From: Ornithodoros turicata
Lineage: Eukaryota > Arthropoda > Arachnida > Ixodida > Argasidae
Direction of reading: 5' to 3'
DNA: 64,000 nucleotides
Assembly (NCBI RefSeq): GCF_037126465.1
Contig: NC_088209.1
Span: 1,860,001 to 1,924,000 of the forward strand
Shown: positions 3,813 to 31,390 of the stretch, piece after piece
How positions within the stretch are numbered: the first letter of the stretch is position 1
Layout of the letters: every line of letters begins with the position of its first letter
Translations under genes and position numbers: made by a program
The notes under the pieces: model-generated
Told to the model about the DNA's origin: nothing
Database searches by the model: none
What the model saw: the letters and a program-made list of their open reading frames with translations, nothing else

Positions 3813-4073
3813 ATATCTGAAGCAAAGAGAGAAAGTCAAATTTATTCAATGATAGACACACTACGCATTTGAAAACGAGAATCAAATTTAATTCCATCGT
3901 TTTATGATAACTTTGTAATAGTATTTTCTACATGCAGAAGCCACAAACAACTCATCTGAAATGCAAATTAATGTAAAAGTTTGCTACAGTGAAAATCAAC
4001 GCACACAACTTAAAAATACTTTCCCAACTAGTAGAATATTTTTATTAATATCAATCGAGCAATCATCTGAAGC

Positions 4074-5692: not shown

Positions 5693-5792
5693 AAGCTGTT
5701 TTCGTTGCGATGTGTAGAATACATTACAGTGATGACAAAGAATACAATTATTATTTCAATTATACACTTGTTTATTTCGATAAATTACAGTT

Positions 5793-6143: not shown

Positions 6144-6206
6144 TGACTGATAGAAGAAAATAAATGTGTAGAGGCTCTAGGTGGAATATATCACGTGATA
6201 AGATTT

Positions 6207-6656: not shown

Positions 6657-7088
6657 TTGTCTGTTCTGTTTTGTAGTGTGCCTCGACTCTTAATTAAATC
6701 ATATCGGTGCTAATTTTATTTGTTAAAAATTTATTATGTTATCACGTCTAGAATATTATTAATATCCACCTGACGTGAGAATTATGAAAGTCAATTTACA
6801 AAAAAAGATGTGATGAGCGAGACAAACCTAGAAGAACCCTCAATTCCCGGTTTGAGTTGTTGGAGTTAGTTTATGACTTTGACCACGACCATTGTGGGAT
6901 CCCACTTCTCCCTGCGGGGCGTAACCTTGGCGAAAGTGCATGGGAGCTCAGCTTCCCTCTCTCACTTTCTCTTTTTCTTCTTTCTTTTTTTTTGTTAGTA
7001 GGCTCTGAATGAAAAAGGTGTGTTCCTGTGATGTATCGTCCTGCTTGGGCAGAAAGTGTTTCCCTAAATTAATTACTGCTTTGAGTTT
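6657..7088. other. Unassigned DNA with polypyrimidine tract
   Basis: A pyrimidine-rich run occupies about 6951-6995 (CT-rich, ending in a poly-T). Nothing else is recognised before the right arm starts near 7089. Confidence 0.5.
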
Positions 7089-7397
7089 GCTTCAGATGAT
7101 CGCTCGATTGATATGAATAAAATATTCTACTAGTTGGGAAAGTATTTTTAAGTTGTGTGCGTTGATTTTCACGGTAGCAAACTTTTACGTTAATTTGCAT
7201 TTCAGATGAGTTGTTTGCGGCTTCTGCGTGTAGAAATTGCTGCTGCAAAGTTATCATAAAATGATGTAATTAAATTTGATTCTCGTTTTCAAATGAGCAT
7301 TGTGTCTATCATTGAATAAATTTGACTTTATCTCTTTGCTTCAGATATTTACTCGATTGATATTTTGTGAGTTGAGAATAATGTATGTATAATAGTT

Positions 7398-9555
7398 CCC
7401 AGTCAACACCTACTGTTGGTGGAACGTAGATCTACGTTGTATAATGTTGAATTTAGAATCATAACGCTGAACCAACGCTGTTTCAACTGTACCTGGTCAT
7501 TGGTAGATTGTGAAGATAAAGAAAAACGTTGATTTTTCATGAAAGAATCAACTGTAGTTTTACGCAGCAAATAGTTGCGTTGGCTATACATTGTACCTTC
7601 AACATATTATCACGAATGGAAACCCGTTGCTTCTTCAGCGTGCACCCAATTGTTTCGCACTGTATTTTATTTTTACGTTCCATTGTGCTGTTCGCGTGTA
7701 GAGTAAGGCCTGTATGACGTGGTATTTATATCACTCATGCTGCCATTACTTTTTACCCATATTTGTAAACGACTCATCACGAATCGCACGTATTCAGTAA
7801 ACAAAGAAAAAAAAACATATTTTACGCCATTATAATGATCGGTCACGGAGGTTGAGGGTTATAACAATAAATCAATTTCTCAACAAGCGCGAGCCGAGCG
7901 CAACTACGTCTGCCTCATCGCAATCGACATTCTCTAACCGCCGTTTCAAATAGTCAAGGCTGGCGAGGCGCGTCGTCGTGGCAGTTCGGTAGGATGGACG
8001 ATGGACATTCATTTTGACACAGGGAAAGGTCTTGGGAACGTCAGCATCACGCGTATTTTGTACTGCAATCTCTGGAGCATCGAGGCAGTACTGGCCAATG
8101 CGGTGAACAACTATGTTGAGCGAATGCCGTAGCGTGCGAGAGGCAGCGTTTCTATGTTCTCCGCCCTTCAAGTTTCACAGGTGAGTTTTCTTTCTTCATT
8201 TTGCCTCACTTAAGATATGTGCGTTCTTGTTTTTACAACGATTACATGTGGTTGAAATGTGGTGCATAACAGTTTAGTATCCGAAGTAAACAGCTTTGTC
8301 GTTTTCTGTAGCTGCAGAATCTGGTTGCGTGTCACTGACAAATTTATGCGAACTGTGGGACTGTGTGTGGTGTGCGTTTGTGATATGTAGTTTGGTGTAT
8401 CCGAATGTTTATTAAATATGCTCTGATGATATCCTACTGGGGTCAGGTTTAATGCTGTCTGGATTATGGATGCTGTAAATGCCTTTTCAGTGTCGACATC
8501 AGTTCGCAACGGAGCTTTACTCCATTGTTGCAGTCGCGCGTTCAAACAGTACGTAGCGCAGGTATTTCAGAGGTTGCAAGTTGCAAAATGCAGATATCTT
8601 TGTTCACATCTCTTCGATTCATGCACTATTTTATAGGTGCTCGTGATATCTTGAACTGGGAGTGGTGAAAGCAGCGGTTGCCTATTCTACGAGCAGTCTG
8701 ATAGTACAGATAAGCTTGGCTGCAAAGGAAATGAGTTACCTTTCCACATCTGACTGCGCTAAGGTTCCTTGTTTTTTGTATAACCGCTTATCTGGTTGTT
8801 GAGTGAGCTAGTGTCGCTGTTTGTAGTTTTGCATGAACTAACATCTTCTGTTACAGTTGTCAGAGAGCTTGAACTGCGTGTGATTTCGTCACATCGATAG
8901 ACAGCGTCAAGCATGTGTAAAGGACCTGGTGTCTCTCTACAACAATGAAGAGCAGGGCATAAACCCGAAGACAAAGACATCGCTTTGCTGCTTCCGCATC
9001 ACACCATCTATACTCCGAAAGAGGCTGCGGTAGGTGTCGTGCACGTGTTCCCAGTGGTTGTAGAGTGTCTGTGACGTCTATTTATGGTAGTGTTTGAGCT
9101 GCTATCCCATTAGATGGAATGACCTATGTTATTGGTTATCTTTTAGAGATGACCATTGCGAAGAGGCGTAGCGACCATCCATGTGGTTATTATTATATGA
9201 CCATTATCACTGATTATCTTTTTTGTACATGTTTCATTACTTGATTTAAGATTTTAATATACACGTACATAAACGGTCATGCCCCTCACTATCTTATTGA
9301 ATATTCATTATTATACATTTGCACTACAGTTAGGTTTGGGGATACCTGCGCTTTTGCCCCAGCAGAAGTGGAGTAGCATAATAGGAAGAGGTAGCAATAG
9401 ACAAAGTAGAATAAACAGTAATTCCCAACATTTGGTGAACGTTCTATCAACGTAGAAAAAACGAGAATCTCACAACACCATCGCAGAATCTACGATGGTG
9501 TTGTAGATTTGCAAGGTTATTTCAACGTTGATTCTACGTTTCGTGGTTCACTGGG
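7398..9555. mobile_element. TIR element T1, CCCAGT ends, 2-bp TT target duplication
   Basis: The element opens CCCAGTCAACACC and closes GGTTCACTGGG, so both ends read 5'-CCCAGT(C/G)AAC inward. TT at 7396-7397 and 9556-9557 flanks it. The sister arm has the empty site with a single AA/TT at 3764-3765, which proves insertion of exactly this segment with a 2-bp duplication. Both ends carry short palindromic motifs: AACGTAGATCTACGTT near 7424, and CAACGTTG plus ACGTAGA/TCTACGT variants near 9440-9540. No transposase was recognised, so it is probably non-autonomous. The superfamily is uncertain. Confidence 0.85.
7872..8171 (-). CDS. Unrecognised 99-aa ORF inside element T1
   Basis: A minus-strand ORF in the middle of T1, with arginine-rich N-terminal residues and a leucine- and aspartate-rich C-terminus (contains SLDYLKRRLENVDCDEADVV). 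This part of T1 has a more GC-rich, coding-like composition than the AT-rich ends. It could be a captured exon or transposase relic. I recognise no domain and no catalytic motif. Confidence 0.25.
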   Translation of the reverse strand: MKGGEHRNAASRTLRHSLNIVVHRIGQYCLDAPEIAVQNTRDADVPKTFPCVKMNVHRPSYRTATTTRLASLDYLKRRLENVDCDEADVVALGSRLLRN

Positions 9556-10977
9556 TTCTGTCTGATCTAAAATACATTAAATGCAGCGTTTCTCGTTTTC
9601 GTTGAGTATTGTTTGCGCCAATAATATTTCTCGTTTGCTTAGAAAATGTTTCTCTAAAACCAGTTTGCACTGACATAAAAGTATATTCTTTGCTTTTTTG
9701 TGCGCTATTGTTTGTTGATAGAATTGTCATTGTATTCTTGAGAATCGAATAATTCCAATGTCTATTTGCGATCAATAAAAAATTTCGCCTCTGTACACCG
9801 GTCCAAAGAATATTTCCTTTTGGAGGAAAGAATGTGAAAAAGAGAGAGGGTTTCCCCACCCCACAGACTGACAAGGGATGTGCGGTATCTTTGCTTTTGT
9901 GGTGTATAGAGGGAGAGACTGACCCCACCGGTCTCAAGTCTGGCTGTACCGTGTAAAGCTTAATTGTGCTGCGTGTTTGGATACCTCTGTCAAGGTAATG
10001 TTTATAGTGCCTGAGTAGGATGAAAATTCTATATTGTTAGGTCGCATCGATGATTTCATGATAGTTCAAACGATAGATTACTTCCATTTCAATTTATTAA
10101 TGTTTGATAGTTTGTTTCGCTATTATTTTCCTGTGTGTTGTTTACATGTTGGCAGATGCATCGTACAAAGCGTTTCTCTGCTATTCATCTGTGCATGTTT
10201 ATTGTTTTGATAGATTGTCTTTTCAATTATTTTCTTTTGTGTACCTCTTGTTTACGTGATGGGTTTTGGTTCTCTATTAGCTGTTGATTGTATTTCTCAT
10301 TCTTTCATTGCATGTACCTATTGTTTACGTGTGGATGGTGTGTCGTTCAAAGTATTACTCTGCTATTCATCCGTGCATGTTTCTCGTTTTGATAGATTTT
10401 TTTTTCAATCATTTTCCTGCATGTGTCTGTTGTTTACACGTTGGATTGTGCATTGTTTTGGCTCTCTATTAGCTGGTCATCTTGTTTCTCATTATTTCCT
10501 TGCATGTATCTATTGTTTACATGTGGATGATGCACCGTTCAAAGTGTTTGTTTGCTATTCAGCGTTAGCTCTGTGCTGTATCAAATTCGTCATGTTTCTC
10601 GTTTTGATAGGTTCTTTTTCAATTATTTATCCTTTGTGTACCTCTTGTTTATGTGATGGGTTTTGGTTCTCTATTAGCTGTTGATCGTGTTTCTAATTGT
10701 TTCCTTGCGTGTGTGCTTGTTTACGTGTGGACATTGTGCCGTTCAAAGTGTTTCTCTGCTATTGAGTGCTAGCTCCGTGCATGTTTCTCCCCTTTGGTAG
10801 ATTCTTTTTTCAATTATTTTCCTGCATTTGTCTGTTGTTTACACGTTGGATCGTGCATTGTTTTGGCCCTCTATTAATGCTAGCTGTTGATCGTTTTGTT
10901 TCTCATTATTTCCGTATGTCTATGCTGTTTACTTAATAAGAAATTCCCTATTGCGCCTTCCCTATTGCGCTCGAAAA

Positions 10978-11986
10978 CAGGGTGTCAGAGCGAACCGAAA
11001 ACCGAAAAAAACCGCTATTTTGGTGCGAACCGGAACGGAATCGAAACCGTATACGTTTTTTTCGCTCAGGAGGGAAACTGAAAAATATATCTAACGGTTT
11101 TCGGCCCAAGAAAAAAACTTTTTGCCGGTTTGGACTCCGGATAGGCGAATGAAACAGACGTCGTGTGCTCTGAAGTCATGTCATGGATACTATACGAGGG
11201 TTACGGTTACGGTAGAATGTATGTCGGTATGACCCTTAGGCTCCCTTTGTAATGGTTTATCGTTCGCGCACGCACACAGACTTAGAGGTACATGTGACTC
11301 TCTAGCAATGTGCCGTAGTGCTAGTTTTAATTTGATCCCCCCAAACTCTCCTCAACTAAACAGCGACCCAAGGGGGCTGCATAACGGCTTCTTTATCGGT
11401 AATGTCGCGCAACGCGTCCCTTGTGTGAGAGCAGCTAAGTTGAATACATTTACGTATACGCGAGGGCAAGCCCGTGCGAAGTGGCAACTCTTTTGTGGAC
11501 AGGACACGGAGAAAATAAAACGGAGCCGTCAAGCGCTTTTGTGAGTGAGGGTGTTCCTCGATTTGCGTCGTACGCGGTGGTGCTAGCTGGCTAGACAGTA
11601 GCAACTGATATTCGGATGGGACGCGATCGCTCCAACCCAGCAAGAAAGTACTTTATGTAAGACATCACGACAAACAAGTCCGTTTGTAGCATGTACATCA
11701 AGAAAGGAGAAAGCCCATTTGAACAGACAGTAACCTACAGGAACCAGGAGCTACCAATTTCACAGCTGTCTATTAATATTAAATACCATGTATGCGGAAT
11801 AAACGGGTTTACATTTTGTAACATTGTTTTTTTTTGTGGGGATGAATATTCCTAGCAGAAGCGGAACCGGTTCAAAAACCGGTATGAACCGTTATTTTTT
11901 TGCTCCGGAGCAGAACCGGTACCGGATCGTTTATGATGTAACCGGAACGAAAACCGGAACGAAAAACGTTTCGGTTCGACACCCAG
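10978..11986. mobile_element. hAT-like non-autonomous element, 1009 bp, 8-bp target duplication
   Basis: The ends are CAGGGTGTC (10978) and GACACCCAG (11986), a 9-bp TIR with one mismatch. CTCGAAAA flanks both sides (10970-10977 and 11987-11994), and the single-copy empty site TTTTCGAG is preserved in the left arm at 2327-2334. CAGGG-type ends with an 8-bp duplication are diagnostic of the hAT superfamily. AACCGGAACG-like motifs repeat within about 130 bp of each end, as expected for subterminal transposase sites. No transposase ORF is present, so movement would depend on an enzyme elsewhere. Confidence 0.88.
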
Positions 11987-12819
11987 CTCGAAAATGTTCA
12001 TAAGTGTCACAATACAGGCGTACGCCTCCCGTCTTCAACAAATCAGGGCAGATATTGTTAGAGCTGGCTGTTGGCTAGGAGCGTGCTATGCGGTGAAGTT
12101 CATTTTTTTAATATATTTTCTGTGTTGTTAAGGTTTGTAGTGTCTCTTAGAATGAAAGCTGTATGGGGTTCGACTAGATTATGTCATGAGGATGATTTTA
12201 TGATAATTAAAATGATAGATTATGCTCCTCCTCTGTTATTTTGATTAAGAATATCTTCTTTGGTTAAATGTAATGTTATAGATTTTATTTCCTCTTGTGT
12301 TCCTGTCATTCTTGTCATTCGTGACCCATCGTCTTCCAGGTTCTCTGCTGTCCGCAATTAACTACATACATCTATCGGCACTTGTAATTAAAGCTCCACT
12401 GTGGTGGTCACGTATAAGAATGTAATCATATTGATTAAAAATATCTCCTTTGATTAAGATGTGGTACTCCTTCTGCTTAATTGAAAACTTGCGTGATTAT
12501 CACTAATAAAACAATTGTGGTACCCCTTCAATGCTATTGCATCAGATTTTTTTAGTTTTTCTCCTTCTCACAGAGTCATAACATAATTCATGACACTAAT
12601 GACTTTAATAAATATATTTTCACTTGTACTTTTGTGTATGGCTATCCTTTGTATGTAAACCGCCTACTGCACACCTGTTGTGTCGGGAAAAAAAATTTAG
12701 ATTGAAGTCGTCCTGGGAGGAGAAATGACGAAAGAAGTTGGCCCAGGCTGAAAAATACGAGAGTGTAAGCGCGCACGCAGCCCTGCCCCCGCCGATAAGC
12801 GCGCGGACAACCCTCCGCA

Positions 12820-12937
12820 CACGCGCCGTGCGGGGAAAAATACACGACGGTGGCCCAGACGCCGTGGGGTTCGAACCAGACACCTATAGAACGTGCTCGC
12901 CCCCGATCTCTCTCGGCCAGCCCTTATACTACTTGTG
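12820..12937 (-). repeat. tRNA-derived SINE head (A and B boxes)
   Basis: On the minus strand, TGGCCGAGAGA (12919-12909) matches a Pol III A box of the Leu/Ser tRNA type, and GGTTCGAACC (12877-12868) is a perfect B box. Their spacing of about 42 nt is as in tRNAs. There is no proper acceptor stem or cloverleaf, so this is a SINE promoter rather than a tRNA gene. It interrupts the RT of gypsy element C at about 12937 and runs directly into the outer end of the right arm. The SINE body may therefore be part of the arm's terminal sequence. Confidence 0.6.
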
Positions 12938-13683
12938 TTCATAACGCACAGCATACAACTGTCATGGTCAAGCACAACTTGCCAAAACCCATGCGCGGCG
13001 TCCAACTCTGAAATGTATTTTGCACCATACAGCTTGTGCGTTACGTCGTCGAGGGTCGACAAAAGGTAATGCTCACGCAAGAGCACTTTGTTGAGCTCTT
13101 CCGGGTCCAGACAGATACGAATCTTGTCGCCTTTTTGAACCACTACCATGTCACTGGCCCAGCCACTTGGTTCAGTCACTATCTCAATGATGCCGTCGCG
13201 GACCATCCTGTCTAGCTCTTGCTTTATTTGCTTCTTTAATGCTATCGGTACTGTTCTTGCTGGCATTACGACTCCCATACTACCTGGCTGAATCTTCATG
13301 GGATAAACGAAGTCTTTGATTGCGCCAACCCCTTTGAAAACATCGCTCAACTCTCCTGCCAAATCGCGGTTGGCGGTCTCGACAACGTAAAGTCGCTTTA
13401 CTAGTTCCAACTCTTCGGAAGCTGATTCACTCAGCGTAAATGGAACTGCTTCCCTGACTACAAAGAACAGTGGTTTTGTCTTTGCGCCTTGGTAGTCGAG
13501 ACGAAGCTTCACTAGTCCTATTGTTCGCACACTGTCCCCGAAGAATCCCTTAAGTATTGCTGAGCAAGGTTTCATTTCGCGATTATGACGCTTAAGGTCA
13601 CCTACGAAATGACACAGCAATCCGCCCCGGAATCTATTCTTGCAACTTGCCTCTTTCCTTCGCAATTGATCTTGACTGCCCAA
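12938..13683 (-). pseudogene. pol: gypsy C protease-RT fragment
   Basis: The frame begins in the protease C-terminal part. The RT fingers and palm follow: RTVPIALKKQIKQELDRMV, then a GWASDMVVVQK-KIRICLDPEELN stretch that corresponds to the Ty3/gypsy fingers. ISELDAAHGFWQVVLD follows, which includes the first catalytic Asp of RT motif A. The frame ends at LCVMNT, where family members continue into PFG and the YxDD motif, so the second half of the active site is lost. Beyond 12937 the frame reads into SINE sequence and is not meaningful. Confidence 0.8.
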
Positions 13684-13845
13684 AAAGAAGAGTCTCGGCT
13701 TGCGGCATTTACCCGAAGGGTGTTAAAGTGATAGTCACTATCATCCTGGCTTTCGGAAGATACCTCTTCGTAGTCTAGCCCTTTGATTTTCCTGGACCTT
13801 CGTCCCCCTTGCGAATATTACCTTGTCGACTGCTGTTGTAGAGCA

Positions 13846-14331
13846 TTATGGTGCTAACCAGCAGTTCCTCGCAAAATGATCTCTTTTTCCGCACTTTTTA
13901 CGAGTCTTTCCCTTAGCTAGACATGTCCTGTTTCCATGACGTTCATAACCACATTGCTTGCAGTTGGCATATTTAGCGGCATCAGGATTCTTCAGCGCGC
14001 GAACATCTTGTTCGTATGTCGGGTTTGACACTTCTTTTACTTGGATTCGTTCACATTGTTCTTTACACTTCTCGTGCGTTTGACAAGCGGACACCACACG
14101 ATCATAACTTGAGTCATCCTTGATCAATTGCCTTTGTAGGTCCTTGTCTTTAGTGCCTGGAATGATTCTTGTCCGCAACATTCGATTTTCCATCTCTCCA
14201 AAATCGCATTGCTTTGCTAGGAGCCTTAACTCTGTTAACCACTCGTCGAATCGCTCATCAGGTCTTTGGTCTCTGGTGCCGAACAAATAGTCCCGGTATG
14301 TCAAACTGACAGACGATTCATCGTTCTTCAA
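13846..14331 (-). pseudogene. gag: gypsy C gag fragment with zinc knuckles
   Basis: The frame contains a retrotransposon-gag-like helical region (FGTRDQRPDERFDEWLTELR) and then CKQCGYERHGNRTC, an intact CX2CX4HX4C knuckle. A second knuckle, CGKRDHFARNC, has lost its first cysteine. Gag N-terminal sequence continues in another frame to about 14540, so it is frameshifted. Gag would package element RNA; this copy cannot be full length. Confidence 0.75.
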
Positions 14332-14534
14332 ATTTCTTTTTCACGGCTTCGATATCGTTCTTCTCTTCCTCGGTACCAGATTGAACTCACTAGACCAGAC
14401 TTTCCATGCCATGGCGAGGTCCGTGTTCGTCGTATCCAGAGGCTTTGGAGGTGGCAGCAGGCTACTGAACAGTGTGGTTGGTGTCGCCGTTGCTTGGATA
14501 TCCTGCACACCGGTGGGAAGCCTATTGCTGCTCG

Positions 14535-14551
14535 TCAAACTCCTGACACCA
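14535..14551 (-). promoter_or_regulatory. Primer binding site, tRNA-Leu-like
   Basis: The minus-strand sequence TGGTGTCAGGAG directly follows the LTR end. It matches the usual complement of a leucine tRNA 3' end (TGGTGTCAGAAG-type) used to prime minus-strand DNA synthesis in many gypsy elements. Its position fixes the LTR boundary at 14552. Confidence 0.65.
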
Positions 14552-14738
14552 TGTAGACGATGTCTGCCGTAGCATTGAAGCGTACACCCAGCCGAGTCTA
14601 ACCAAACTGAACAAGTTTATTTGTGTCTCATAGCTTAGGTAAGGTACAACAGCGGGTGGGGCGTATTGCATCGCACGAGACGATATCTTATCGCTGGCTT
14701 CTGATAACAAAGGAACATCTTAGATGCTTTATGTTACA
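14552..14738 (-). repeat. 5' LTR of gypsy element C (187 bp)
   Basis: On the minus strand it begins TGTAACAT and ends GTCTACA, with the canonical TG...CA ends. It is followed at once by the primer binding site and carries an AATAAA signal (CACAAATAAACTTG). The 3' LTR is absent, so LTR divergence cannot date it. Confidence 0.65.
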
Positions 14739-14739
14739 C

Positions 14740-15486
14740 TACTGTCCTTTACCATAATTCGTGAAAATTCGGGTCACGTTATACACTTCTCGATTCCTCA
14801 ATTGCCGAATGCCATAAGCTGTATAACTTCTGACATTACACAACAAGCAAGTAATAACGCGAATTAGTTTTAACACCCACGTCAAATGCGTATTCTGCTT
14901 TAAATCTGAGTCCAAATGTATACCAAGATGTTTTATGCATGACATGAAGACCATGGGCGTACAGCCACAATTACAACACCTGTTACCATGTAAGTAAAAA
15001 GGAAAATTGCATACAATACTCTTTAGGGGAGTAAGAAAAAGGATAAGCCTTGATTTTACTGGGTTAACACTTATAGCATTATCAGCAAACCAATTCATAA
15101 TATGGGAGGCGTCATCCTTCAGTAAACGTAAAGCATCACTATACGACGAATGAATGAGAGCAAAAGCGTATCACCTGCACACTGAAAAATATACGAGGTC
15201 TAAGGAATGTTGCCCAGCTCACTCACAAAAATATTGAAATGAAGAGTGGGGCTAGACATGATGCTAGAGGAACATCAGAATTTATTTCGGCAATACCACC
15301 GCGCATATTCTCTATTATCACTAGTTGGGACCTATATTCCAGGTAGGACTGAAACCACTTAAGGAAAGGTCCTCTAAACCCAAAATAATAGAGCCTTTCT
15401 AAAATACCAGAGATTAATCGTGTCAAAAGCTTGCCCAAGATCCACGGAGAGTGCAGTTGCAACAAGATTTTTGTCAAGAGCAGCAT
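14740..15486 (-). pseudogene. LINE reverse transcriptase fragment, decayed
   Basis: 15486-15223 encodes GFRGPFLKWFQSYLEYRSQ, a typical CR1/jockey-group LINE RT palm segment. The usual GVPQGSVLGPLLF motif follows in eroded form (DVPLASCLAPLF). 15098-14739 continues with NWFADNAISVN and IKHLGIHLDSDLK, the RT thumb region. The FADD catalytic box between them is not intact, and there is at least one frameshift. The fragment ends abruptly at the LTR of gypsy C. Confidence 0.75.
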
Positions 15487-15553
15487 ACAGATTCAACATG
15501 TCTTCAAGAAGGCTACCCTTGTACCCTTACCCCGTACAAACCCGTATTGAGAT

Positions 15554-15653
15554 TTTATTATTATTATTATTATTATTATTATAAGGCTCTGGCCAAGGCT
15601 CCAAGGCCCTTGCCGTTCTTGAGCACGTTAATAAAGATTATTATTATTACCTA
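15554..15653 (+). repeat. (TTA)n microsatellite and LINE-tail-like end
   Basis: About ten TTA units (15554-15583) are followed by GGCTCTGGCCAAGGCTCCAA and then CACGTTAATAAAGATTATTATTATTA. The AATAAA plus (ATT)n ending is what CR1-like LINE 3' tails look like, but no coding part is attached. Confidence 0.5.
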
Positions 15654-17160
15654 GTACTATAAAGGTCCGGTTTCACCAACCCTGGTTAACCGTGAAGTTA
15701 TCTCGGAATTTTTTTTCGTAAACGTTAGTAGGTTAGTAGGTGACGTGATGAATGTTTCAGTAACAGTAACTCCCTCTGGTGAAGTATAGTTAATCCTTAG
15801 CGAAGATAGCGAAGGGTCATTAGCGAATATAAGATGAATTGCTTACGTGTCCTGAGTGCGTCTTGTGTGCGTTTGCCCTGGGTATTTTTTCCTCGAAAGA
15901 TGTTCCGATTTGAACCCAGAACCGTGTGGAGCTTTTTGCACTAGGCCTCACACCACCCAAAAAATACATTGCGAACAAGATTACTAATGTATTGTTATTG
16001 AAAAGGGAATATTAATTGGCTTGGTGCGTCCGTCCGCGCCACTACGACAATGGGTACGAAATAATGAAGTAGCATACTTTCACTGAAGATAATTTGAAGT
16101 CACGTTCACAATGATGTGATTAAAATGGTTAATTATAATCTACTGGGCAGAAGAAGGCGTGCTACAGTGCTGCATTCGGTGCCAGCAACAGGAAATTCCT
16201 CTGGGCCGTCAGTGCCACTATAAGCAAGACTGCGCGTTGTTTTCAAAATCGCAACGCACACAGTTTGAAACATGAACGCTGGCGGAGCATTCTGCTTATA
16301 TTACTCTCGCAGCGTCCAGCTCCTCGTCCAAATATTTTGAAAGACGTGACGGAAAAAGGATACGTTTATTACAGCCTGCTGGTCGGCATCAGCCCCATCT
16401 CATCATCGTATCTTTATGCGCGCGCGTGTGTGTGTGTTATTACTGCTGCTGCGAGTTGGGAAGGACACGAATATAAGGGCGAGCACCCGAGCAGCCGAAG
16501 TTAAGGCGAAACAGGTAAGTGTGATTGATTTGCTTTGATAATGTGCGAGCAATGTTGATGACAGCAGTTTCGATGTGCCATGTCAGTATCAGTCACTGCG
16601 GCGACGAAAGCTTGTTGAAACATGTTACGAAAACTATTCTAGTTTAATGAAAGGCCGAATGGTACGAATCTCGCGCTCAAGAGGATTCCATCAGTGACTC
16701 GCATGATTTCGATTGTTCTACCGAAAACGTATGAAGCAATGAAGCTCTGATGCGATAACAAAAAGACAAGAGGTCTCGCGATCTACCTAACTGTTTGAGA
16801 ATGCAGAGTGGGTATCTGCTATACTTTAGTACACGTATAAAATATGTGGGGTCTACGCGCCCGATGGGGTCTTGGATAGTGGGGATCAATCCCAGGAAGC
16901 TCTCCTGAGGGGATGTAAAGGGTCAAGCTGGACCTCATACTACGATGGAGAGATTAAAAGCGCTGAAAACAGATGAGCGCACTAACAACAAGTTTATTTT
17001 ACACAAGAGCCGGGTTTTAAAAGACCCAGCGACGTCCATTTGCTTGTCGCATACTAATGGACGCGATTGTTGAACGGCGCTTTTCCATTATCAAGAAGGT
17101 CGTCTCCCCCCCCCCCCCAGCACCAAAAAACTCTTCCTATAAACCCACAGAACCTTCCTT
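15654..17160. other. No gene recognised
   Basis: Contains a (GT)n stretch at about 16427-16438 and a 13-bp poly-C run at 17106-17118. A minus-strand AATAAACTTGTTGTTAGTGC at about 16990-17005 resembles the polyadenylation region of short gypsy LTRs, but LTR ends cannot be placed. Short ORFs show no domain. Confidence 0.5.
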
Positions 17161-18150
17161 TTTATCTTTATTTATTTATTTTTATTATTATAGCTGCAAC
17201 GCCGGGGGGCATTACAGTAGGGGAGTGGGAACAACGCAAAGTAAAAATACAACAAAAAGTAATTTTAGAAACACCACTACGCCACAAACTGCATACAAGG
17301 TTACATGGTATACAGGAGCTGATAAAAGCGTCACGTTCGTCAACAAGATGGACAGGCAATGTATTGCATTCAGAAACAGTCCAGGGAGAAAAAAGAGTAT
17401 TTAAAAACATCAGTTCTGCACACATATTCAGCAAGATATTTGGTATGATCCAACCTGGATGACACATAAGTAGGCGAACGTATATGCTGGGATGGCTCTA
17501 ATGCAGACTTACAATTATAGATGGTGTGAAAAAATGTGAGCCTAAGACACCTTCTCCGAACAGTCAGTGAGTCCCACCTCAACTTGGTCCTCATTTCAAT
17601 GACGCTTTCACCAAACCCATAGAGTGAGGAAACAAATCTGGCCGCATCATTTTGAACTTTTTCAATAGTGTTAATGCACCCTGAAGCTGAGGTACCCCAA
17701 TACAACTGAGGCGTACTCCAAGATCGGTCGAACAAATGTAACATACGTTACTTCTCTCACGTTTTGGGGCGCACTCTTGAAATTCCTAACTATGAGACGT
17801 AACATGCGGTTGGCCTTCTCAGTGATTAACCGATTGTGACTGTTCCACTTAAGATCAGAAGAGAAGATTATACCGAGGTATTTAAAGTCATTAACAACTT
17901 GAAGATCACAATTATTCAAAGTGTACGACGTGGTAAACAGTTCCTTCTTCTATGTGAATGACATTACCTTAAATTTGGTAAAATTTAGCGGTAAGTGCCA
18001 ATTAATCGACCAATTAAATAGCGTGTGAATATCCTGTTGCGAGGTGAGTGCATCATTACTCCCATGAATCTCCCTATACAACAAACAATCATCCACAAAA
18101 AGTTTCACTCTGGACTCGGAACACAACAAGATATACCGGCTCACAGCGCG
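17161..18150 (-). pseudogene. 5'-truncated LINE, RT 3' half and tail
   Basis: On the minus strand: VKLFVDDCLLYREIHG (18108-18082 region) is the RT catalytic box, with FVDD in place of F/YADD. It is followed by KYLGIIFSSDLKWNSH and RPILEYASVV (17919-17671) and EKVQNDAARFVSSLYG (about 17670-17630), the thumb and C-terminal regions of CR1/jockey-type LINEs. The coding part moves between frames. The 3' end at about 17161-17195 is an AATAA/AAATA-rich tail, the expected LINE terminus. 5' truncation near 18150 is typical of incomplete target-primed reverse transcription. Confidence 0.8.
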
Positions 18151-18907
18151 ACCTATGCTTAGATAGTGTTTTGAGATCTTGCCAACGCATTACAGCGGTG
18201 TCCGCGTAATCCTGCATTTACACGACAGCGGCTCTGCTCTAGATAAACATGGCCACGAGACGCTGTGTAAGTTTAGTCTGCGAAATCTGCAGTTATACGA
18301 TAAATTCCTAAGATTTCACACGATCTTAAAGGAACATTAAGGTGATACCTAACATGGGGAAAAACTGCTGCCGCCTTTTACAGCGGTGTATCAAAATAAT
18401 TATCATGAAATATTTCCGCCCAATGTTTTTCGTTTCTTTTTATCACTGCGACGCAATTTCGTTTACAAAATCGCTGCGAGAGCCTCGAGCGCTCGAACGG
18501 TAGACAACACCCGTCTATAGTGTGACGCCTGTGACTGAGCCTTGTCATTCGTTGGTAGAAAGAAATCGTTTGCTACGAGGAGCTACGAGCATGAAGAGCT
18601 GTTTCTTCTTCACTGGCGCGCGTTATCTCAAAGTTATCTCAAAACTAATCCCAACTGAAGAATACTACGAGCACCATATTACAACTACATGATAAAAGAA
18701 GTTGTCGAATCCAAGTTTACCAGTGTGATGTCACTCTTTCCAAAGAAAGAGGGTCATTGGCTAATCATGTTGTGCATGTCTGCTGCATGTCTGGCATGCA
18801 GAATTCATAGCTATCCACCATCGTAACATACCTGACACTCAGTTTTCACGTAGTTTAGTATATAGTGGTATGCTGTGCCTTCTTTTGTCTATAGGTAGCA
18901 TTAATGT
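18151..18907. other. No gene recognised
   Basis: Unique within the window, with no convincing ORF and no element boundary. It looks like old repeat or intergenic DNA. Confidence 0.5.
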
Positions 18908-19861
18908 CCCAGACAGAACATTATCTCCTGCGGATGTCCGAAATAGATCCTAACGTCCATGTCTTGAAATGAATGTCAGGTGGACATCCCTCGAAGCTAC
19001 ATGAATGGACATCCCTAACCGTACATCCGCAGGATGTACCGTAACGGACGTTTGAAGAATTGTCCAAATAGGAACCCTGACGGGATGTTACGTGGAGCAT
19101 TATCGTAGGAGAGAGAGAAACAAGGCACGGCGCATCGTGGCGTGAGTTTGACTTTCGATGAACAAACTAGACGCTTTACACCAAAAAGAGCAAGAAACAT
19201 AAATGTTGCATCATAATGAGTTAATGCGCCAAGCAGTTCTTCAGTCCATTGTTATTGGTATACGCAATCACGTTAAACTTAAACACCCCCTTTTAGTTTG
19301 ACTTGCATGCAAACTGGACTCTCGAATTTTCGGAAGCTCACGAGACAAGCAATATATAGTACCTGTTTTGGCTTTGGAAAGGTATGCACTGCCTTTCTAA
19401 GTGATCTTCATGGTTCTAAGAGATTGTACATGTACGTCTTTATTTTTACTTTTTAAAACTTCGTGCTCATTGTCCGTAACGGGAATACGAGAAACAAACG
19501 AAAAGGAGCAACGATGCAGTGGCCGAACCCGAAACAAAATGTCGAAGAAAAAAAAAAAGAAGCACGCCTACGGGCCTAGTAAGAATCTGTCCTCTTACGC
19601 GGCAACTCAATAAAGCAGTATGAATAATAATGAGGAAATGCAGGGCACTGAGCATGTACGCAAGTAAGTCCGTGCAACGTCCGGGTATCTCCGTGTAACT
19701 TCCTGCGAGGACAAACGGCGGATATTTGTGGGAAGTTCGAACCGTGGCCACCCGGAGATGTGGGGGACGTCCGTCGGAAAAATGTCTGTCTCCCAGGGAG
19801 ATCCGAATTTCCCAGAAAGGATATCCCCAGGAACACCATGGGAAGTTTTGTTCCGTTTGGG
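18908..19861. mobile_element. TIR element T2a (954 bp), CCCAGACAGAAC end, GT flanks
   Basis: The left end CCCAGACAGAACATTATCTC pairs with the complement of the right end (CCCAAACGGAACAAAACTTC); GT flanks both sides (18906-18907 and 19862-19863). It is the same family as 22195-23119: similar ends, similar GAGAGAGAAAC internal block, similar size. GGACATCC, GGATATCC and GGACGTCC-type palindromes crowd the outer 200 bp at each end. No coding capacity. Confidence 0.75.
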
Positions 19862-20007
19862 GTATATGTTAAGGTCCTTAAATTGGGAAAAGTACCACCA
19901 TGAATTGATATTGCCGATGCGACCTTGAAGCTTTGATGGCGACCGCACCATGCAAACCTATGCCGCCATTAAAGCTCCAAGGTCCGGCGGGGAAGAGATG
20001 TTTCTAC

Positions 20008-20482
20008 CAGGGTATCGAACCAATCCAGAACCGGAAACTGTACTGGAACCGTTATTTTCGCCGGAACCGAACCCGGACAGAAATTTTCATGACAGTGTCG
20101 AACCCGAACAGGAGCAGAAACTGCAAAAATATTAGCGGTTCCTGGTTTCGCAACGAAACGGTTTGGGCATAAAAGACGTCATCGTAAGTGTTCAAGTGCT
20201 CTCAATCCCACCCCGAACGAGGACACATTGGTCTCCATATTAAAGATATTTTGACGTTTTTAGACACCATAGGACTTCCATCCTTACTGTGAAGGGGCTC
20301 GTTACTGCGTTCCCCACACCACGATCAGCAATGGGGTAGCGTATTCCATTGGCGATGAAGTTTTGTGCTGAACCGGTTCGTGAACCTGTTCAATCTTTGG
20401 CGCGGCCTAATCGGAAAGAAATCCAATTAATGCGAACCCGAACCAGAACCGCGCCCGTATTTTTTGCAGTTCGACAACCTAG
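20008..20482. mobile_element. Short hAT-like element (about 475 bp)
   Basis: The left end CAGGGTATCGAACC and the right end complement CTAGGTTGTCGAAC form an imperfect TIR resembling that of 10978-11986. Both ends carry GAACCGG/CCGGAAC repeats and the phrase ACCGTTATTTT also seen in the larger element, so it is probably a related or shortened family member. The flanks TTTCTAC and TTCCTACC suggest an eroded 8-bp duplication. No ORF of note. Confidence 0.6.
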
Positions 20483-22039
20483 TTCCTACCTTTCGAGATG
20501 CAAGGACTTTAGTGTTCATCGACTGACGCTTTCTCACCTTTCTCTATGCAGGAGCATGAGGGGATTCGTTGTTGTTGTCTTTGTACCCGGGCACTTGAGG
20601 CAATCACTGTGTACCCTTGTCGGTAGAAATATACAAACAGGACGGCGGCTACAGAAACATTATGGCCGCTATCTACAGGCACCTAAGTTGCAACTCAGTT
20701 ACCAGCTGCTGGATAATATAAAGGTAAAAGCTATTTCATAATAAGCATATCTGCTTGTACAAACAGCATCAGCTATAAATTTCCTTTTTTGCGCCTAAGG
20801 CAACAGAAATTAGCTTTTACCCCTACTATATGATGGCCTATTTCGTGGACCACTGCTCTGATAAAAGGCGCCATTTTGAAATCGACCAAAATTATTATTC
20901 TTTTGCGGTCATTAAATACCGGTAGAGTCGGCGATGTTGTTCAGCATCATAAGTATGTCGCACCAATTAAATTACCTCTGTTAGTTGTTGAGACCAGTCT
21001 TGGGAAGTTATTACGCTTATAAAGTAGCTGAGTTACAAGGAGGACTAGTCTACGCCAATAGTAACTAGTTGAGTTACATGGCGAGTAAACTAGTGACATT
21101 GACAGTAGTATATATCCGGGGCACACAACAGCCAGTATTTTCTGATCTAGTTCTAGGAATTTCTAATCCACCACCACCCAATTCAAATCCAACACAAGCC
21201 AGTTCTAAGCCATCCGATTGGTGGCCCCACTTCGATTGACAGGCCCCCTTTTTGGCTCTGCCCCTTCACGGTGGTCGATCTAATGTCTACTTGATTGCCT
21301 ATCCTTCGTCGCCACCCTATCAATTGACGTACTCATAGACACCCAAATGGTCTATTCTATTCATTTCCAATCCTAGTGGTTCGCTCAAGAAATTCTATTC
21401 TATTAATTTCTAAGTCTGCTCATAGGCCCCCCAAATTGCTCACCTCTCTATTGGTCCAGGGACACCATTTCTGAAGCTAGTGATTGGCTCAGGATTCTAT
21501 TGGCTGCCTATTGTACACGCTCTATATACAGATTGGTGAATTCCCCTCACAGGCTACTCGCTCATATGCTTTCAACTGCTTATTGGTTCATAATTTCAAC
21601 CGCAACATAGACAACCGCTCGTGGGTCAATCACATTAATTTCTGGGCCAGCTCACAGTCCCCCCAAATTGCATATTGGCTTGGGATGCTTTCTAGTTATG
21701 CCAGGACAACGCTTCGGAACGGTAGGCACATAGAAAAACATGGGAAATAGTTTTCAATATTTATTAAACACATTATGGCATTCTCAGAGAGGTTGTAGTT
21801 CTCTCTGGGGCACTTCCAGACACACACTGGACATTTTCGCCCGCCTCCATCGTGTTTTTCGCATAAGCACCATGTGGATCACCCAGGCGCTCATCCTTCT
21901 CCGTCCACGGCCCAGTCCCAGACCACATGAGAGAACAGCATGTCACAGAAGTATCAGTTCTCTTCCTGCACATCTTCTAGAGTGAAAAAAGAACATTATG
22001 AGCTTCACTATTTACATCATCCATTTAAACTTACCATAT
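20483..22039. other. No gene recognised
   Basis: Contains loosely repeated TTCTATTCTATT and CCCCCAAATTG motifs (21340-21680). No known protein domain on either strand. Confidence 0.5.
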
Positions 22040-22192
22040 TCACAGCTTCCATAAGGGTAGGATTCGATGATGACATCGCGGCAATTGCCTGGCAGGGCGC
22101 GCATAGTGGATGCAGAGGTATCGGTTGTCGTCATATGCCATCAGACTTCTTTTGATGTTTCTGATGGTGTACGTGCACTGTTTCTTTCCAAC
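22040..22192 (-). pseudogene. polB: Protein-primed DNA polymerase B, C-terminal piece
   Basis: The minus-strand frame contains CTYTIRNIKRSLMAYDDNRY. The terminal DDxRY with an upstream basic helix is the conserved C-terminus of DNA_pol_B_2 enzymes of Polintons and adintoviruses (usually DDKRY). It lies immediately beyond TIR element T2b, and the frame joins the piece at 23120 when T2b is removed. The end after RYLCIHYARP is eroded. Confidence 0.75.
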
Positions 22193-22194
22193 TA

Positions 22195-23119
22195 CCCAGA
22201 CAGAACACCATCTCCTACGGACGTCCGAAATAGATCCCAATGTCCATATCCGAAAACTGACCTCCGTGGGACTCTCCTCGGATATTTGTGGAAGGATATC
22301 CGTAGCCGTATATCCGCAGGAGGTCCTGTTGCAGCCGTTTCACGGATTGTCCGAATGAGCTCCGTGATGGGATGCTGTACGGATCATGTATTTGAAGAGA
22401 GAGAGAAACGCGGGACGATGTAGCACTGCAGAAAATCGGCTTTCCATGAACCAACTCACTTACTTCAAGCTACATGAGTAAGAAACAGAGACATTACCTC
22501 TACGCCGACCTAATACGCCATACAATTTCTCATTTCGCCGTTGTTTGTGCACGCAATCGAGTTAAAGTTAGACAGCTCACCCTTCATTTCGACTCACATG
22601 CGAAAAGGGCTCTCGAATGTGTAGAAGCTCGCGAGAACACCAATGTACAGTGTCTGTTCCCTGTTTGGAAGTTAATGCAACTTCATTTCCAAAACATTTC
22701 GGCTGAGTGGTGCTCTTGTTGCTGTTTCTTCTTTTTTTTTCTTTTTTTGAAACGCCGCGTTGATTTTCCCTTATGGGAAGCAAAGCGGAGCAACAGAAAG
22801 TGAAACGAGCGGTGACAGTGGCAGATGTTAAAAACAATAGCGGAAACACGCTTTATATTTTACTACAAAGCGTATACTTACTTCTGAAAAATAACAAAGT
22901 AACACACGCTCGAGATACACGCTACATCCCAGAGAGCTCCTGTTTCTGTCCGTATCTCCTGGTTATGTCCGCAAAGTGCACGTTCGTAGGAAGTTCGAAG
23001 CCCGGCCAAGTGGATCTCCGTGGTATCTCCACTGGAGGAATTTCATTATTCTGCGGATATCCGTATCTCCGTGAAAGTATATCCGATGGACATCTGTAGG
23101 ACAGAATTTTCTGACTGGG
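22195..23119. mobile_element. TIR element T2b (925 bp), CCCAG ends, TA duplication
   Basis: The ends are CCCAGACAGAACACCATCTC and the complement CCCAGTCAGAAAATTCTGTC. TA flanks it at 22193-22194 and 23120-23121. It sits inside the polymerase B gene, and removing the element with one TA restores that reading frame across the site, so the boundaries and the 2-bp duplication are well supported. The palindromes GGACGTCC, GGATATCC and CGGATATCCG are concentrated near both ends. Second copy of the T2a family; non-coding. Confidence 0.88.
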
Positions 23120-24063
23120 TATTGGCACTTTCTCATTCGATACGCTCATGTTGTTGAATAAGGTATCACAGTATTTCTCATGAAGGAGGTGCTTGCGACA
23201 ATATTTTTTTTACCCCTTTAGCTCTTGCAATTTGCTTTTTTCCAGCTAGTTTGATGGAGTACATTTTAGCTTTCAAGCATATTATTCTTCGATAGGTACA
23301 CTACTAGTTTCGCTTTTGAAAGCCCCAAGTCTCCCATGATTCTTTTCACCGTGCAGTGGATGATTCCGGTCGAAGGAAGACAAATCTAAGTGGTCGTCGG
23401 CAATCGCTCGTAACTGACCGTCGTAGTCCTTGCAGAATAGGCCGAGGATCAGAGAATCCGTGTCAAAGTAACAGATAATCACTGGACAAGTGAGCTTACT
23501 CAACAGGGTTTCGTAGTAGAATGAGTACATGTTTAATTTACTCAGTTCCAAAATCGTAAACCCAATCTGGAGTGGGAAATCGCATTGCACTTTTCTTTTG
23601 CGCATTTCATACATGACACAATCCGGGGGACAAAATTTCCATCATCACGCGTTCCGCCCGAATCCCGAGGCGACTCGCCGTCTCCTCATCGAAGGATACT
23701 CAAATGTCCCGCATGTTAAGTTTATTTAAAAGCGTTCTTCCGAATACCGTGTTATTTGAGAGATTATAGAAATTTATTTAGGTATAAAGAACGTCGTGCT
23801 CGAGGCAACGCGTCTGGCAACATTGTCCTCGATGTAGGGACGCAGGGATGATGTCTGGCGAGATTTTAGAATTCTGTGAATTTTCGTCACTCTCATACCC
23901 AATCTACAATAGAGTGCGAGCAGCACGTAATGAAAGACATACTAGACCTTGTCCTTGCACGTGAGCAGCAGCTTTTTTGGTGTTAGCTCGCGATACATCA
24001 ATTCTTCGAGGAGCCCTCGCTGGAATGGCAAGAGCCAATCCTTCGGGACGACCATCTTCTCAG
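23120..24063 (-). pseudogene. polB: Protein-primed DNA polymerase B, palm-to-C-terminal piece
   Basis: In minus-strand order: WLLPFQRGLLEE (about 24040), then a YVFHYVLLALYCRLG segment in a shifted frame, TKIHRIL, and SSLRPYIEDN (about 23830). These match the pPolB region just before motif B. Next, LQIGFTILELSKLNMYSFYY and ICYFDTDSLIL (about 23490-23440) carry motif C with both catalytic aspartates. AKMYSIKLAGKKQIARAKGV follows in another frame. Motif B has not survived cleanly, and at least two frameshifts and one stop are present. The enzyme would replicate a Polinton or adintovirus-like genome; this copy is dead. Confidence 0.85.
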
Positions 24064-24214
24064 TGTGATAGAGCTTCAGGTGATGAAGCTAAGGTTGATT
24101 TTGGCTCGCGCTGAGTGGTTGTTTTGTGTGCTTGTTTTGCCAGTCCGCGCTGCATTCCAGTCGCGGTTCCACCTTGGAATAAGCATTGCTGTTGCTACTC
24201 TATGTCTCTACTAG
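24064..24214 (+). repeat. Inverted LTR of gypsy A (truncated by 8 bp)
   Basis: Matches the LTR at 28416-28573 in opposite orientation, from TGTGATAGAG to CTCTACTAG, lacking the final TTCTCACA. Its first seven bases, TGTGATA, lie in a 9-bp AGTGTGATA (24062-24070) that also occurs at the far edge of the block (31683-31691). Confidence 0.8.
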
Positions 24215-24392
24215 TGTAATGATCTGCAACGGTCCAGGAGGTGGCAACGAAGAGTAAGGAACTGTAGGACAGCTCAGAGAACTTGGGAACGTGCGCTCCT
24301 GGCATCGAACTCCGGATCACTTCGTCGCTCGTGCCTTGCAGACGTGCGCCCTCTTTTATTTCTTCTGTGGCAACACATCTCACAACATTACA
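24215..24392 (-). repeat. 3' LTR of gypsy element B (178 bp)
   Basis: On the minus strand it begins TGTAATGTTG and ends GATCATTACA, with inverted TGTAAT/ATTACA ends and an AATAAA signal (GAAGAAATAAAAG). The purine-rich tract GGGTATGGGGGAAGGGA precedes it, as expected of the polypurine primer. It abuts the inverted A LTR at CTAG. Confidence 0.8.
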
Positions 24393-24499
24393 TCCCTTCC
24401 CCCATACCCAAACACATAGATAGGTTCAAACACAAAATGAAAACTACCCAACAATGAACAGTCAAGTGTTTACGGCTGATACCGGTCAACTGGTCGTCG

Positions 24500-25253
24500 T
24501 CAAGTAGACCGCCGCAGAACGGGCGGTGATGGTGCCGCCATAGCCGCTTGCGATGGTCCAGCATTACCAATTGCGTCTGGGAGTGGACGGACGTTGTCCC
24601 GCCCAGGACTCGACGCAGCAGGTCCCGCAGGAGGGGGAATCAGGTCCGCGGTTGGTGACGCAGGCATGGATGGCGCCGCCCGCACAGGACTTCCAGGAGG
24701 ATTCTGCGAAGTGCTGTTGTTTTGTGGTCCCCTTACGAAGTCGGAATGTCTATGCCAGGTGCTACCATCGGAGAGCCGCACGTCCACAGACGACGAACTT
24801 GCCCTGTGGGAAACTTCACCTGGAACCCAGTTTGGTCCTGGTCTGAAATTCCGAGCATAGACTGTATCCCCTGGCAACAACTCTGGGCTATTCCTAGCAT
24901 GCTGATCGTGCCATATATTCTGTTTCAGCTGGTGATAGGCCACGTTTTGCCGCAAGGCAGGGCGAAGACAGTCCAACGCCGTTTTTAGCTTCCTCCCCAT
25001 GAGCAGTTCGGCTGGTGTCCGTCCAGTAACCGCATGTGGTTGGGTGCGGTAGTGCAACAAAAACCTGGCGACCTGGGTCTTGAAATCCCCTGTAGTACTT
25101 TTCTTCAGCTTGGCCTTTACCGTCTGCACTACCCTTTCCACTGCGCCATTTGATGCAGGGTGATATGGTGGAATGAGCAGCAGTCTGATGTTGTTCCGCT
25201 TAAGGAAAGCCCTGTACTCATTGCTCACAAATGCAGGCCCATTGTCTGAGACC
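24500..25253 (-). pseudogene. pol: gypsy B integrase, second half
   Basis: Begins VSDNGPAFVSNEYRAFLK, the segment with the second catalytic Asp, then LLIPPYHPASNGAVERVVQT, containing the catalytic Glu of the DDE triad. QTQPHAVTGRTPAELLMGRK is close to the family consensus. The C-terminal region (LPGDTVYARNF, WVPGEV) is the small beta-barrel domain, and a proline/alanine-rich tail follows. The open frame is long and well preserved, so the break by T3 is probably recent. Confidence 0.85.
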
Positions 25254-25264
25254 AACCCAGGCGA

Positions 25265-25740
25265 AAATTTTTTGAACTGGTACCAGTTGAACTGTGTTAT
25301 CGAACAGGGACCAGTTCAACCGGCCCCAGATCAACTGGTCCCTGTTCGATAACACAGTTCACCCAGTCCCAGTTGCAACCGGTCCCAGTTGAGACTGGGA
25401 CTGGTTAGAAACCAGTTGGGCCAACTGGTACCGGTTGAGACTGGGACCGACCAGAAACCAGTTGGGCCAACTGGTACCAGTTGATCAAACTGGTCCCTGT
25501 TCGATAACACAGCTCACCCAGTCCCAGTTGAGCTGGTCCAGTTGCAACTGGGACTGGGCGAACTGTGTTATCAAACAGGGACCAGTTCGATCAACTGGTA
25601 CCAGTTGGCCCAACTGGTTTCTGGCCGGTCCCAGTCTCAACTTGTACCAGTTGGCCCAACTGGTTTCTAACCGGTTGCAGTCTCGATGGGAACTGCTTGC
25701 GAACCTCATTGTTGAGCTGGGACCGGTTGAAGTGGCTTCA
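25265..25740. repeat. Left subterminal palindrome array of T3
   Basis: At least ten overlapping AACTGGTACCAGTT-type half or full palindromes occur, interspersed with CTGTTCGATAACACAGTTC and its complement. The latter allow hairpins of over 100 bp. The chance ORFs here on both strands are repeat by-products. Confidence 0.8.
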
Positions 25741-26964
25741 CTTAGAGCGGCCTGTTCAGGCAGAGGTTAGCTTGTATGTAACCGGTGCCCCTTTGCAGAA
25801 TCGCTGTTCCCAGCAACAGCAGATCCAAAGAACTGCAATGCAAAATTGCATTTTATTTGTAGTCAAACATTACACATATTCTAATGTACATGTAGCGTAA
25901 CTATAACATAATTAAATTATAGCAGTAGATGAACTACAGAGTTACATGGAATAGATAATACTTCATGGTTGATTGGTCCCTTGCTTGACTGCCTTGTGGA
26001 CATCTTGAACCATTCAACAAAGTATTTGAGATGTTCTTAATTGCACACGATGCATCGATATTTTCCTTTGAGCCCCAGCAGCCAGCAGCTAAGGTTTCTG
26101 GAAAGTTGAAAAGGCACAAGTGAATATGCATTCAATTGCAACATGTAACTGTGGTGTGTGCCTGGACAATCACTCAATCTGAGCAGTCGTGGCCCCGGAA
26201 AGTACGCGAATCTCTCAACATTTCCGTTGTGCAGTAGTTGGACCTTTCAACTAAGAGATTCGCCGGCTTTCGGGGGCAATGAGTACTACTCTGCGCACTA
26301 CGCTAGTTCGACAACATCCGTGGTGCGAAGGATCTAAAACACGAGAATGAACGAAAAAAAAAAGCAAAAACAAAAACATGAATAGAAAAAGTTGCTGGTA
26401 ACGTTAACATAAACCGGATGTTACTCGTAAAACGTGAAAGGTGTCACGAATGTGACGCAGAACAAAGAGAAGCGGTTGTAGTGGAAGTAATATTTCTAAA
26501 TGATGCACAAGGGAAAAGCACTTAAGTATATAGTACTCACGATATAAAGCGGTCTCCACAGTTGTAGTCGAGCTGTAATCCTATAACACCCACCCGCCCG
26601 GCCGCTGGCGCTCATTGTACTGTCGCACTGTCGTAACTTGTAGAAAAATCCTTTAGATTATAAAACCAACGCCTATGTCACACATCACGCTAAGAACATA
26701 CTGGGCAATAATCGCTGTACAAGCATGCTGCTAAGCAAGCGACCGTTGCACAGTAAACGCATGATTCATCGCGGGAGCAGGAACGCATAAAATACAACTA
26801 TAAGAGTTCCAAAATAACTTTCGTTAACACTAACGAACTTTACCAAAAATTGAAATATGATTATTTCTACTAATCAAGTTACTTTCTGATCGTTTTTATA
26901 ACTTCATCTTGCAATCTTCATATTAACCTGTCCTGGCACTCAAACCGAAACTTCCCCCAAATAT

Positions 26965-27262
26965 GTAAACTGGTCCAGTTCGAACTGGCACCACCTCACT
27001 TCCACTTGCTACCAGTCCAGCTTGAACTGGTACCAGTTCACTTTCCAGTTGCCGCCATCCCAGCTTAAACTGGTACCTGTTTACTTCCCAGTTGCTACCA
27101 GTCCAGTTTGAACTGGTACCACAAAGTGCCCAGTTGCCACCAGCCCAGCTTGAACTGGTACCAGTTTACTTTCCAGCTGCCACCAGTTTGGTACCAGTTG
27201 GTTCCAGTTCACCGCCAGTTGGTGCGAACTGGGAACGAGCTGGTACCAGTTGACTTCCCAGC
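26965..27262. repeat. Right subterminal palindrome array of T3
   Basis: GAACTGGTACC, with the phrases CCAGTTGCCACCAG or CCAGTTGCTACCAG between, repeats at roughly 50-60 bp spacing. It is the same core motif as the left array but arranged differently. Confidence 0.8.
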
Positions 27263-27281
27263 TCAAATTTTCGCCTGGGAA

Positions 27282-30254: not shown

Positions 30255-30299
30255 GGCCTCTCGTTCAATTTGGGCATACTTTTTCTCTGCAACTGTGAG

Positions 30300-31378: not shown

Positions 31379-31390
31379 AAGCTCGTTTAG

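Follow-up and report, generated by a model that had tools for sequence, protein, structure and literature searches.

Which kind of transposase moves short elements that end in CCCAG and are flanked by 2-bp duplications of changing sequence? The question is raised by a stretch of 64,000 nucleotides from the soft tick Ornithodoros turicata (NCBI RefSeq assembly GCF_037126465.1, contig NC_088209.1, positions 1,860,001 to 1,924,000; hereafter the window), which holds four elements with terminal inverted repeats (TIRs), here called E1 to E4. A preliminary description had treated them as one group on account of their ends, their 2-bp target site duplications (TSDs) and the palindromes of each family, and had put forward ISL2EU as a candidate superfamily. 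Our main conclusion is that E1 to E4 are very probably non-autonomous families of TRC (Transposon Related to CACTA), a branch of CACTA/EnSpm. The elements, their duplications and the one empty site listed here are as follows, in window coordinates:

7398 to 9555, plus strand: E1, TIR element without a recognised transposase, TIRs CCCAGTCAACACC and CCCAGTGAACCAC
7396 to 7397, no strand: left copy of the E1 target duplication, TT, from the window sequence
9556 to 9557, no strand: right copy of the E1 target duplication, TT, from the window sequence
3764 to 3765, minus strand: empty E1 target site, within an inverted paralogous copy of the E1 flanks (2389 to 4075)
18908 to 19861, plus strand: E2, TIR element with GGAYRTCC motifs near its ends, TIRs CCCAGACAGAACA and CCCAAACGGAACA
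18906 to 18907 and 19862 to 19863: E2 TSD, GT
22195 to 23119, plus strand: E3, a relative of E2, TIRs CCCAGACAGAAC and CCCAGTCAGAA, described from the window copy alone
22193 to 22194 and 23120 to 23121: E3 TSD, TA, in the window copy
25256 to 27279, plus strand: E4, TIR element with CCCAGGCGAAAATTT at both ends
25254 to 25255 and 27280 to 27281: E4 TSD, AA

A 2-bp rule shared by the families

The positions given for the four elements in the preliminary description are exact to the base, as are the ends and the flanking dinucleotides. All four elements start with CCC, and every end reads CCCAG except the right end of E2, which reads CCCAAAC as had been reported.

Taken by itself, the window lends some colour to the view that E1 to E4 are four unrelated families (for example Tc1/mariner in the case of TA) that converged on CCCAG by chance. 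E2 and E3, 68% identical over 465 bp, are the sole pair of elements to match each other in a window self-comparison, and chance also produces short TIR pairs there. With its tandem array excluded, and with at least 10 of 14 TIR positions matching, the window contains seven CCCA..TGGG pairs with a 2-bp TSD, that is, E1 to E4 and three others that equal E1 in score, compared to a mean of 1.30 pairs (maximum 4) in 40 Markov sequences under the same criterion. At least 11 matches of 14 leave three pairs (E2, E3 and E4), versus a Markov mean of 0.30 and a maximum of 2. The short TIRs of E1, E2 and E3 thus stand only moderately above chance within the window, and it is therefore the genome copies that decide.

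Searches of the tick genome yielded at least 88 match rows for E1, 42 for E2 and 143 for E4, which are lower bounds because only 40 candidates were scored for each family (out of 579, 1582 and 726, respectively). Twenty copies per family were fetched, mostly the best-scoring ones, a few with seemingly incomplete ends being skipped. An exact 2-bp TSD flanked 19 of the 20 E2 copies, 15 of the 20 E1 copies and 17 of the 20 E4 copies. Once copies sharing a left flank had been removed, together with one E1 copy (L048) that did not have both ends, the proportions were 17/18, 15/18 and 17/20, or 49 of 56 copies in total; the two scripts used for tabulation differ in where an end of one E1 copy is placed. 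A duplication matching over 3 bp or more was seen in a single copy of the 56, and registers shifted by 1 to 7 bp matched in 0 to 4 copies per family. The duplicated sequence itself varies: 14 of the 16 dinucleotides are represented among the 49 sites, with A or T in 35 of the 49 at the first position and likewise in 35 at the second, and AT and TA account for 7 and 6 sites. The CCC tip is present in the E1, E2 and E4 copies, a few of which are mutated there, and in the window copy of E3. As for the 15-base TIR of E4, it occurs in the genome 127 times in forward and 116 times in reverse orientation, while the reversed pattern used as a control gave no occurrence.

The duplications are consequently true 2-bp duplications of unfixed sequence, E3 contributing its window copy, and the tabulation of flanking dinucleotides that had been proposed as a check upholds the rule for E1, E2 and E4. 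Two of the three empty sites claimed earlier were reproduced. For E1, the inverted copy of the flanks carries a single TT and no element; for E4, joining the flanks through a single AA gives a gypsy-type integrase reading that is open across the junction. The third was not found, and in the window self-comparison the flanks of E2 and E3 did not recur.

Nested in other elements of the genome are more stretches that end in CCCAG and have the same dinucleotide on both sides: 3701-5081 of locus L070 (TA), 966-3337 of L072 (CA), and 1291-3688 of L073 (TA), the last enclosing yet another CCCAG-ended stretch at 1533-3018 (TT). The CCCAG group is larger than is visible from the window alone. Three families with collected copies obey the same exact 2-bp rule and share the CCC tip, nested stretches of the same build exist elsewhere, and TA makes up only 6 of the 49 duplicated sites where Tc1/mariner would have TA only; chance convergence of four unrelated families is accordingly extremely improbable, and the claim that this is one coherent group holds.

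Placement among known superfamilies

The candidate first proposed, ISL2EU, also makes 2-bp duplications, and relatives of its transposase are common in the tick genome (at least 117 match rows, 114 of 1613 candidates having been scored). Our group would then be ISL2EU-like (PHIS superfamily) and moved by a DDE_Tnp_4/YqaJ protein pair. However, ISL2EU is described with AT as its duplication, with TIRs that usually begin with GG, and as coding for a DDE protein together with YqaJ (PMC4482050), as against the 14 dinucleotides, AT being 7 of 49, and the CCC ends found here. Moreover, one ISL2EU-type element could be delimited in the tick: locus L070 (G000:C1:108306978-108314821) has DDE_Tnp_4, HTH_Tnp_4 and YqaJ frames by Pfam, and they belong to an element at about 880-6540 that has GGTGG ends of its own and is inserted in an E4 copy. 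The CCCAG-ended stretch of this locus sits between the YqaJ frames of that element. Around one further relative of the ISL2EU transposase that was examined (L076), no CCCAG end pair was found. We thus abandon ISL2EU as the candidate, and regard it as highly improbable that its transposase pair moves the group.

The CCC ends and 2-bp duplications of E1 to E4 are also marks of the animal TRC elements, which are described as having a Transposase_21 protein, a CCC core in their TIR and 2-bp direct repeats (PMC1636069). In SmTRC1, such repeats flank 7 of 14 copies, three of them shown against empty sites (DeMarco et al. 2006, PMC1636069); multiple alternatively spliced transcripts have been reported for the same element. 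One likeness in sequence involves Aedes aegypti, whose TRC element has 2-bp direct repeats and CCCAGTCAAC as its TIR (PMC1636069): with these ten bases, unaltered, the E1 copies begin on the left in 12 of 20 cases and on the right in 15 of 19. The Aedes element differs in being 9.2 kb long and in encoding a TRC protein, where E1 to E4 have no recognised transposase, and its description does not use the term 'subterminal' (PMC1636069). A second likeness is with Spongebob of Hydra, or EnSpm-4N1_HM, which is classed as TRC, has the TIR CCCAGCCAACATTGAC and a 2-bp TSD, and is present in many copies (PMC4298943). Its transposase could not be made out owing to stops or frameshifts; it is 5.8 kb long and inhabits another host, and the likeness is drawn from its published description (PMC4298943). 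A literature search for a 2-bp TSD combined with CCCAG ends gave no match.

If the TRC assignment is right, a group of short tick elements takes its place in the animal branch of CACTA, with the 2-bp rule shown on 56 sites. In the annotation of tick genomes, CCCAG..CTGGG elements with variable 2-bp repeats could then be filed as TRC/EnSpm candidates instead of unknown.

Transposase_21 and the search for autonomous partners

Transposase_21 frames of the TRC branch are common in the same tick genome. PF02992 gave at least 63 matches (150 of 169 candidates scored), 56 of them over the cut-off, with frames reaching 830 aa, and gave no match in any of 14 control genomes. Six of the 63 loci, belonging to four lineages, were examined. 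Two of them, L082 and L083, contain a common element and are 99.6% identical there, which suggests that the element, with copies on C2 and C3, moved recently. The C2 copy (reverse complement of L083 plus L085; G000:C2:21841800-21855800) is a complete TRC element of 9,551 bp: it has CCCGTAC at both ends, TIRs alike at 20 of 25 positions, an AT flank on each side and an open Transposase_21 frame of 775 aa. It splits a gypsy-type gene, and the flanks joined through a single AT are open. It thus resembles E1 to E4 in its CCC tips, its 2-bp TSD and its host genome, and differs from them in the tip CCCGTAC, in possessing its own 775-aa Transposase_21 frame and in its sparse terminal motifs. No similarity to E1 to E4 was found in L082 or L083, and no matching right end was found for the C3 copy (L082 plus L084). 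A second lineage (L077 and L081) begins with CCCTATC, and its start is abrupt, within an E4 copy. Relatives of the Transposase_21 of a further locus, L079, were found in Ixodes, Dermacentor, Rhipicephalus, fish, insects and a coral among the best 120 of 263 matches.

Two candidates for an autonomous E4 were rejected. L077 has the look of an E4 that carries a Transposase_21 gene, but the second copy, L081, assigns the gene to the CCCTATC element; the remainder of the E4 copy was not found within 15 kb. At L070, a 7.6-kb pair of E4 TIRs encloses genes, which belong to the nested GGTGG-ended element, and E4 continues across it.

Several observations weigh against the TRC assignment. The termini of CACTA elements are usually CAC..GTG (PMC6004678), and those of CMCT lineages mostly 5'-CA..TG-3' (PMC12730594); our ends read CCCAG, not CAC, and the claim is therefore for a TRC-type and not a canonical CACTA element. 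Among the six Transposase_21 loci examined, none has the transposase between CCCAG ends. One lineage among those examined has a complete end pair (CCCGTAC), and it is complete in one of two copies; the other end and the TSD of the CCCTATC lineage were not found, and at L078 and L079 no ends could be recognised over about 4 kb. In the complete C2 element, motifs chosen by eye are sparse, with CCTGAATC present twice in the 800 bp of the ends and twice in the 8,751 bp of the middle, CCGGAAT 4 times versus 0 and ATTCCGG once versus twice, so that the element has no arrays as dense as those of E1 to E4.

The search for longer relatives with the same ends, which the preliminary description had called for, points the same way. 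Among the first 100 of the 243 places of the E4 TIR, at least 8 pairs span more than 2.8 kb, and among the 6 that were fetched none was found with a transposase of its own. Five of them (L070 to L074) are copies of E4 that contain nested inserts. The remaining one, L075 (G000:C1:212143964-212147135), has the ends and the right part of E4, equal CC flanks and another interior of about 2 kb, in which frames reach 151 aa and no long frame exists. Equal 2-bp flanks were seen in 3 of the 6 pairs. Finally, the fetched E1, E2 and E4 loci, flanks included, have no open frame of more than 209 aa; the same would be true of any non-autonomous element.

The lack of a transposase between CCCAG ends in the loci examined could be read differently, namely as the sign of a new superfamily whose transposase goes unrecognised and which has CCC tips and a 2-bp stagger in common with TRC by chance. 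The TRC elements observed in the tick genome do have other tips, CCCGTAC or CCCTATC. Against this stand the ends of the E1 family, which agree with the TIR of the Aedes TRC at ten bases and are similar to those of Hydra EnSpm-4N1, and the complete TRC element of the same genome, whose CCC tip and stagger are identical to those of the group. We consider a new superfamily very improbable and retain the assignment of E1 to E4 to TRC.

Several E1 copies have short open frames in a shared position, at roughly 650-1550 of the fetched loci, and GTGAGT follows one such frame in the window copy. These frames could be a captured host fragment; the two window E1 frames compared with Pfam had no match.

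Subterminal motifs and other features of the window

The following features lie near the ends of E1 and E4 in the window:

7423 to 7438, no strand: E1 16-bp palindrome AACGTAGATCTACGTT, from the palindrome count
9523 to 9530, no strand: E1 right subterminal palindrome CAACGTTG
25275 to 25691, no strand: E4 left subterminal array of CTGGTACCAG and AACTGG motifs, with inverted repeats
26973 to 27248, no strand: E4 right subterminal array of CTGGTACCAG motifs

The copies of E1, E2 and E4 carry short motifs near their ends, in both orientations. The E1 motif is a half-site found in both orientations, AACGTAGA/AACGTTGA; in 19 copies, AACGTAGA occurs 62 times in the outer 300 bp and never in the middle. 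The corresponding counts for the outer 200 bp and the middle of 20 E2 copies are 33 versus 0 for GGACATCC and 21 versus 0 for GGACGTCC. In 20 copies of E4, CTGGTACCAG is found 125 times in the ends and 43 times in the middle, or 10.4 per kb against 1.4. Because the copies are related, none of these tallies is made up of independent counts. Crowding of the motifs toward the ends is a property of each of the three families.

Whether the motifs are palindromes is a separate matter, for which dinucleotide shuffles of the window copies served as the baseline. Perfect 8-mer palindromes are in clear excess in E4 (20, versus a shuffled mean of 7.1 and a maximum of 13) and borderline in E2 (7, versus a mean of 3.2 and a maximum of 7), with no excess in E1 (11 versus 9.3) or E3 (4 versus 3.3). 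The single 16-bp palindrome of E1 has an expected number of 0.03, and its 14-base core is absent from all 19 other E1 copies. The term 'palindrome' therefore suits E4 well and E2 roughly. Of the family-specific palindromes clustered at the ends that had been described initially, the motif arrays stand for E1, E2 and E4, whereas a clear excess of perfect palindromes is confined to E4.

Short subterminal motifs in both orientations are known for CACTA/EnSpm from maize En/Spm, where the protein TNPA binds inverted subterminal motifs. The dimeric DNA-binding subunit put forward in the preliminary description, with a site that would differ between families, would resemble this. A Transposase_21 protein supplied in trans would bind the subterminal motifs of the tick elements, perhaps as a dimer or via a TNPA-like helper protein. 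The bound protein would bring the element ends together, cut at the CCC tip and join the element to the target, whose two strands would be cut with a 2-bp offset; repair of the staggered target would then yield the 2-bp duplication. The families would have diverged through changes of the subterminal motif, with no change in the CCC tip or in the 2-bp stagger. A more specific proposal, which we offer tentatively and hold to be rather doubtful, is that TRC families in the tick diverge mainly by exchanging one family-specific, near-palindromic subterminal site, at which a transposase or helper protein docks as a dimer, for another, with the CCC tip and the 2-bp cut fixed. If this were true, motif switching would let one family escape being cross-mobilised by another, and the many families that live together in this tick would form a natural series for motif switching. 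Motif arrays that differ between families make the co-divergence of transposase and site testable.

The window is nuclear DNA, and several retrotransposon genes are also present in it, including the one that E4 interrupts:

24500 to 28394, minus strand: gypsy-type retrotransposon integrase/RNase H region, split by E4
30248 to 31390, minus strand: gypsy-type reverse transcriptase

Scanning the window with Rfam and for tRNAs gave no match. Scans of viral contigs with the E4 patterns gave no match in one and, in another, a single unrelated phage site: at 10462-10540 of phage contig L001, ACTGGTACCAGT occurs twice and, in part, a third time within a short distance. We read this site as a repressor operator, unrelated to E4.

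The tandem array mentioned above occupies 26 kb of the window (35264-61383), with 289 copies of a 91-bp unit at 92% matches; it is also readable as a 181-bp unit, and has many open stretches of 100-220 aa on the minus strand. Lastly, a segment of 775 bp at 4074-4848 is 88% identical to its own reverse complement and is not CCC-ended. It begins at the point where 3764-4075 and 7087-7397 cease to be homologous, and is possibly a foldback insertion.

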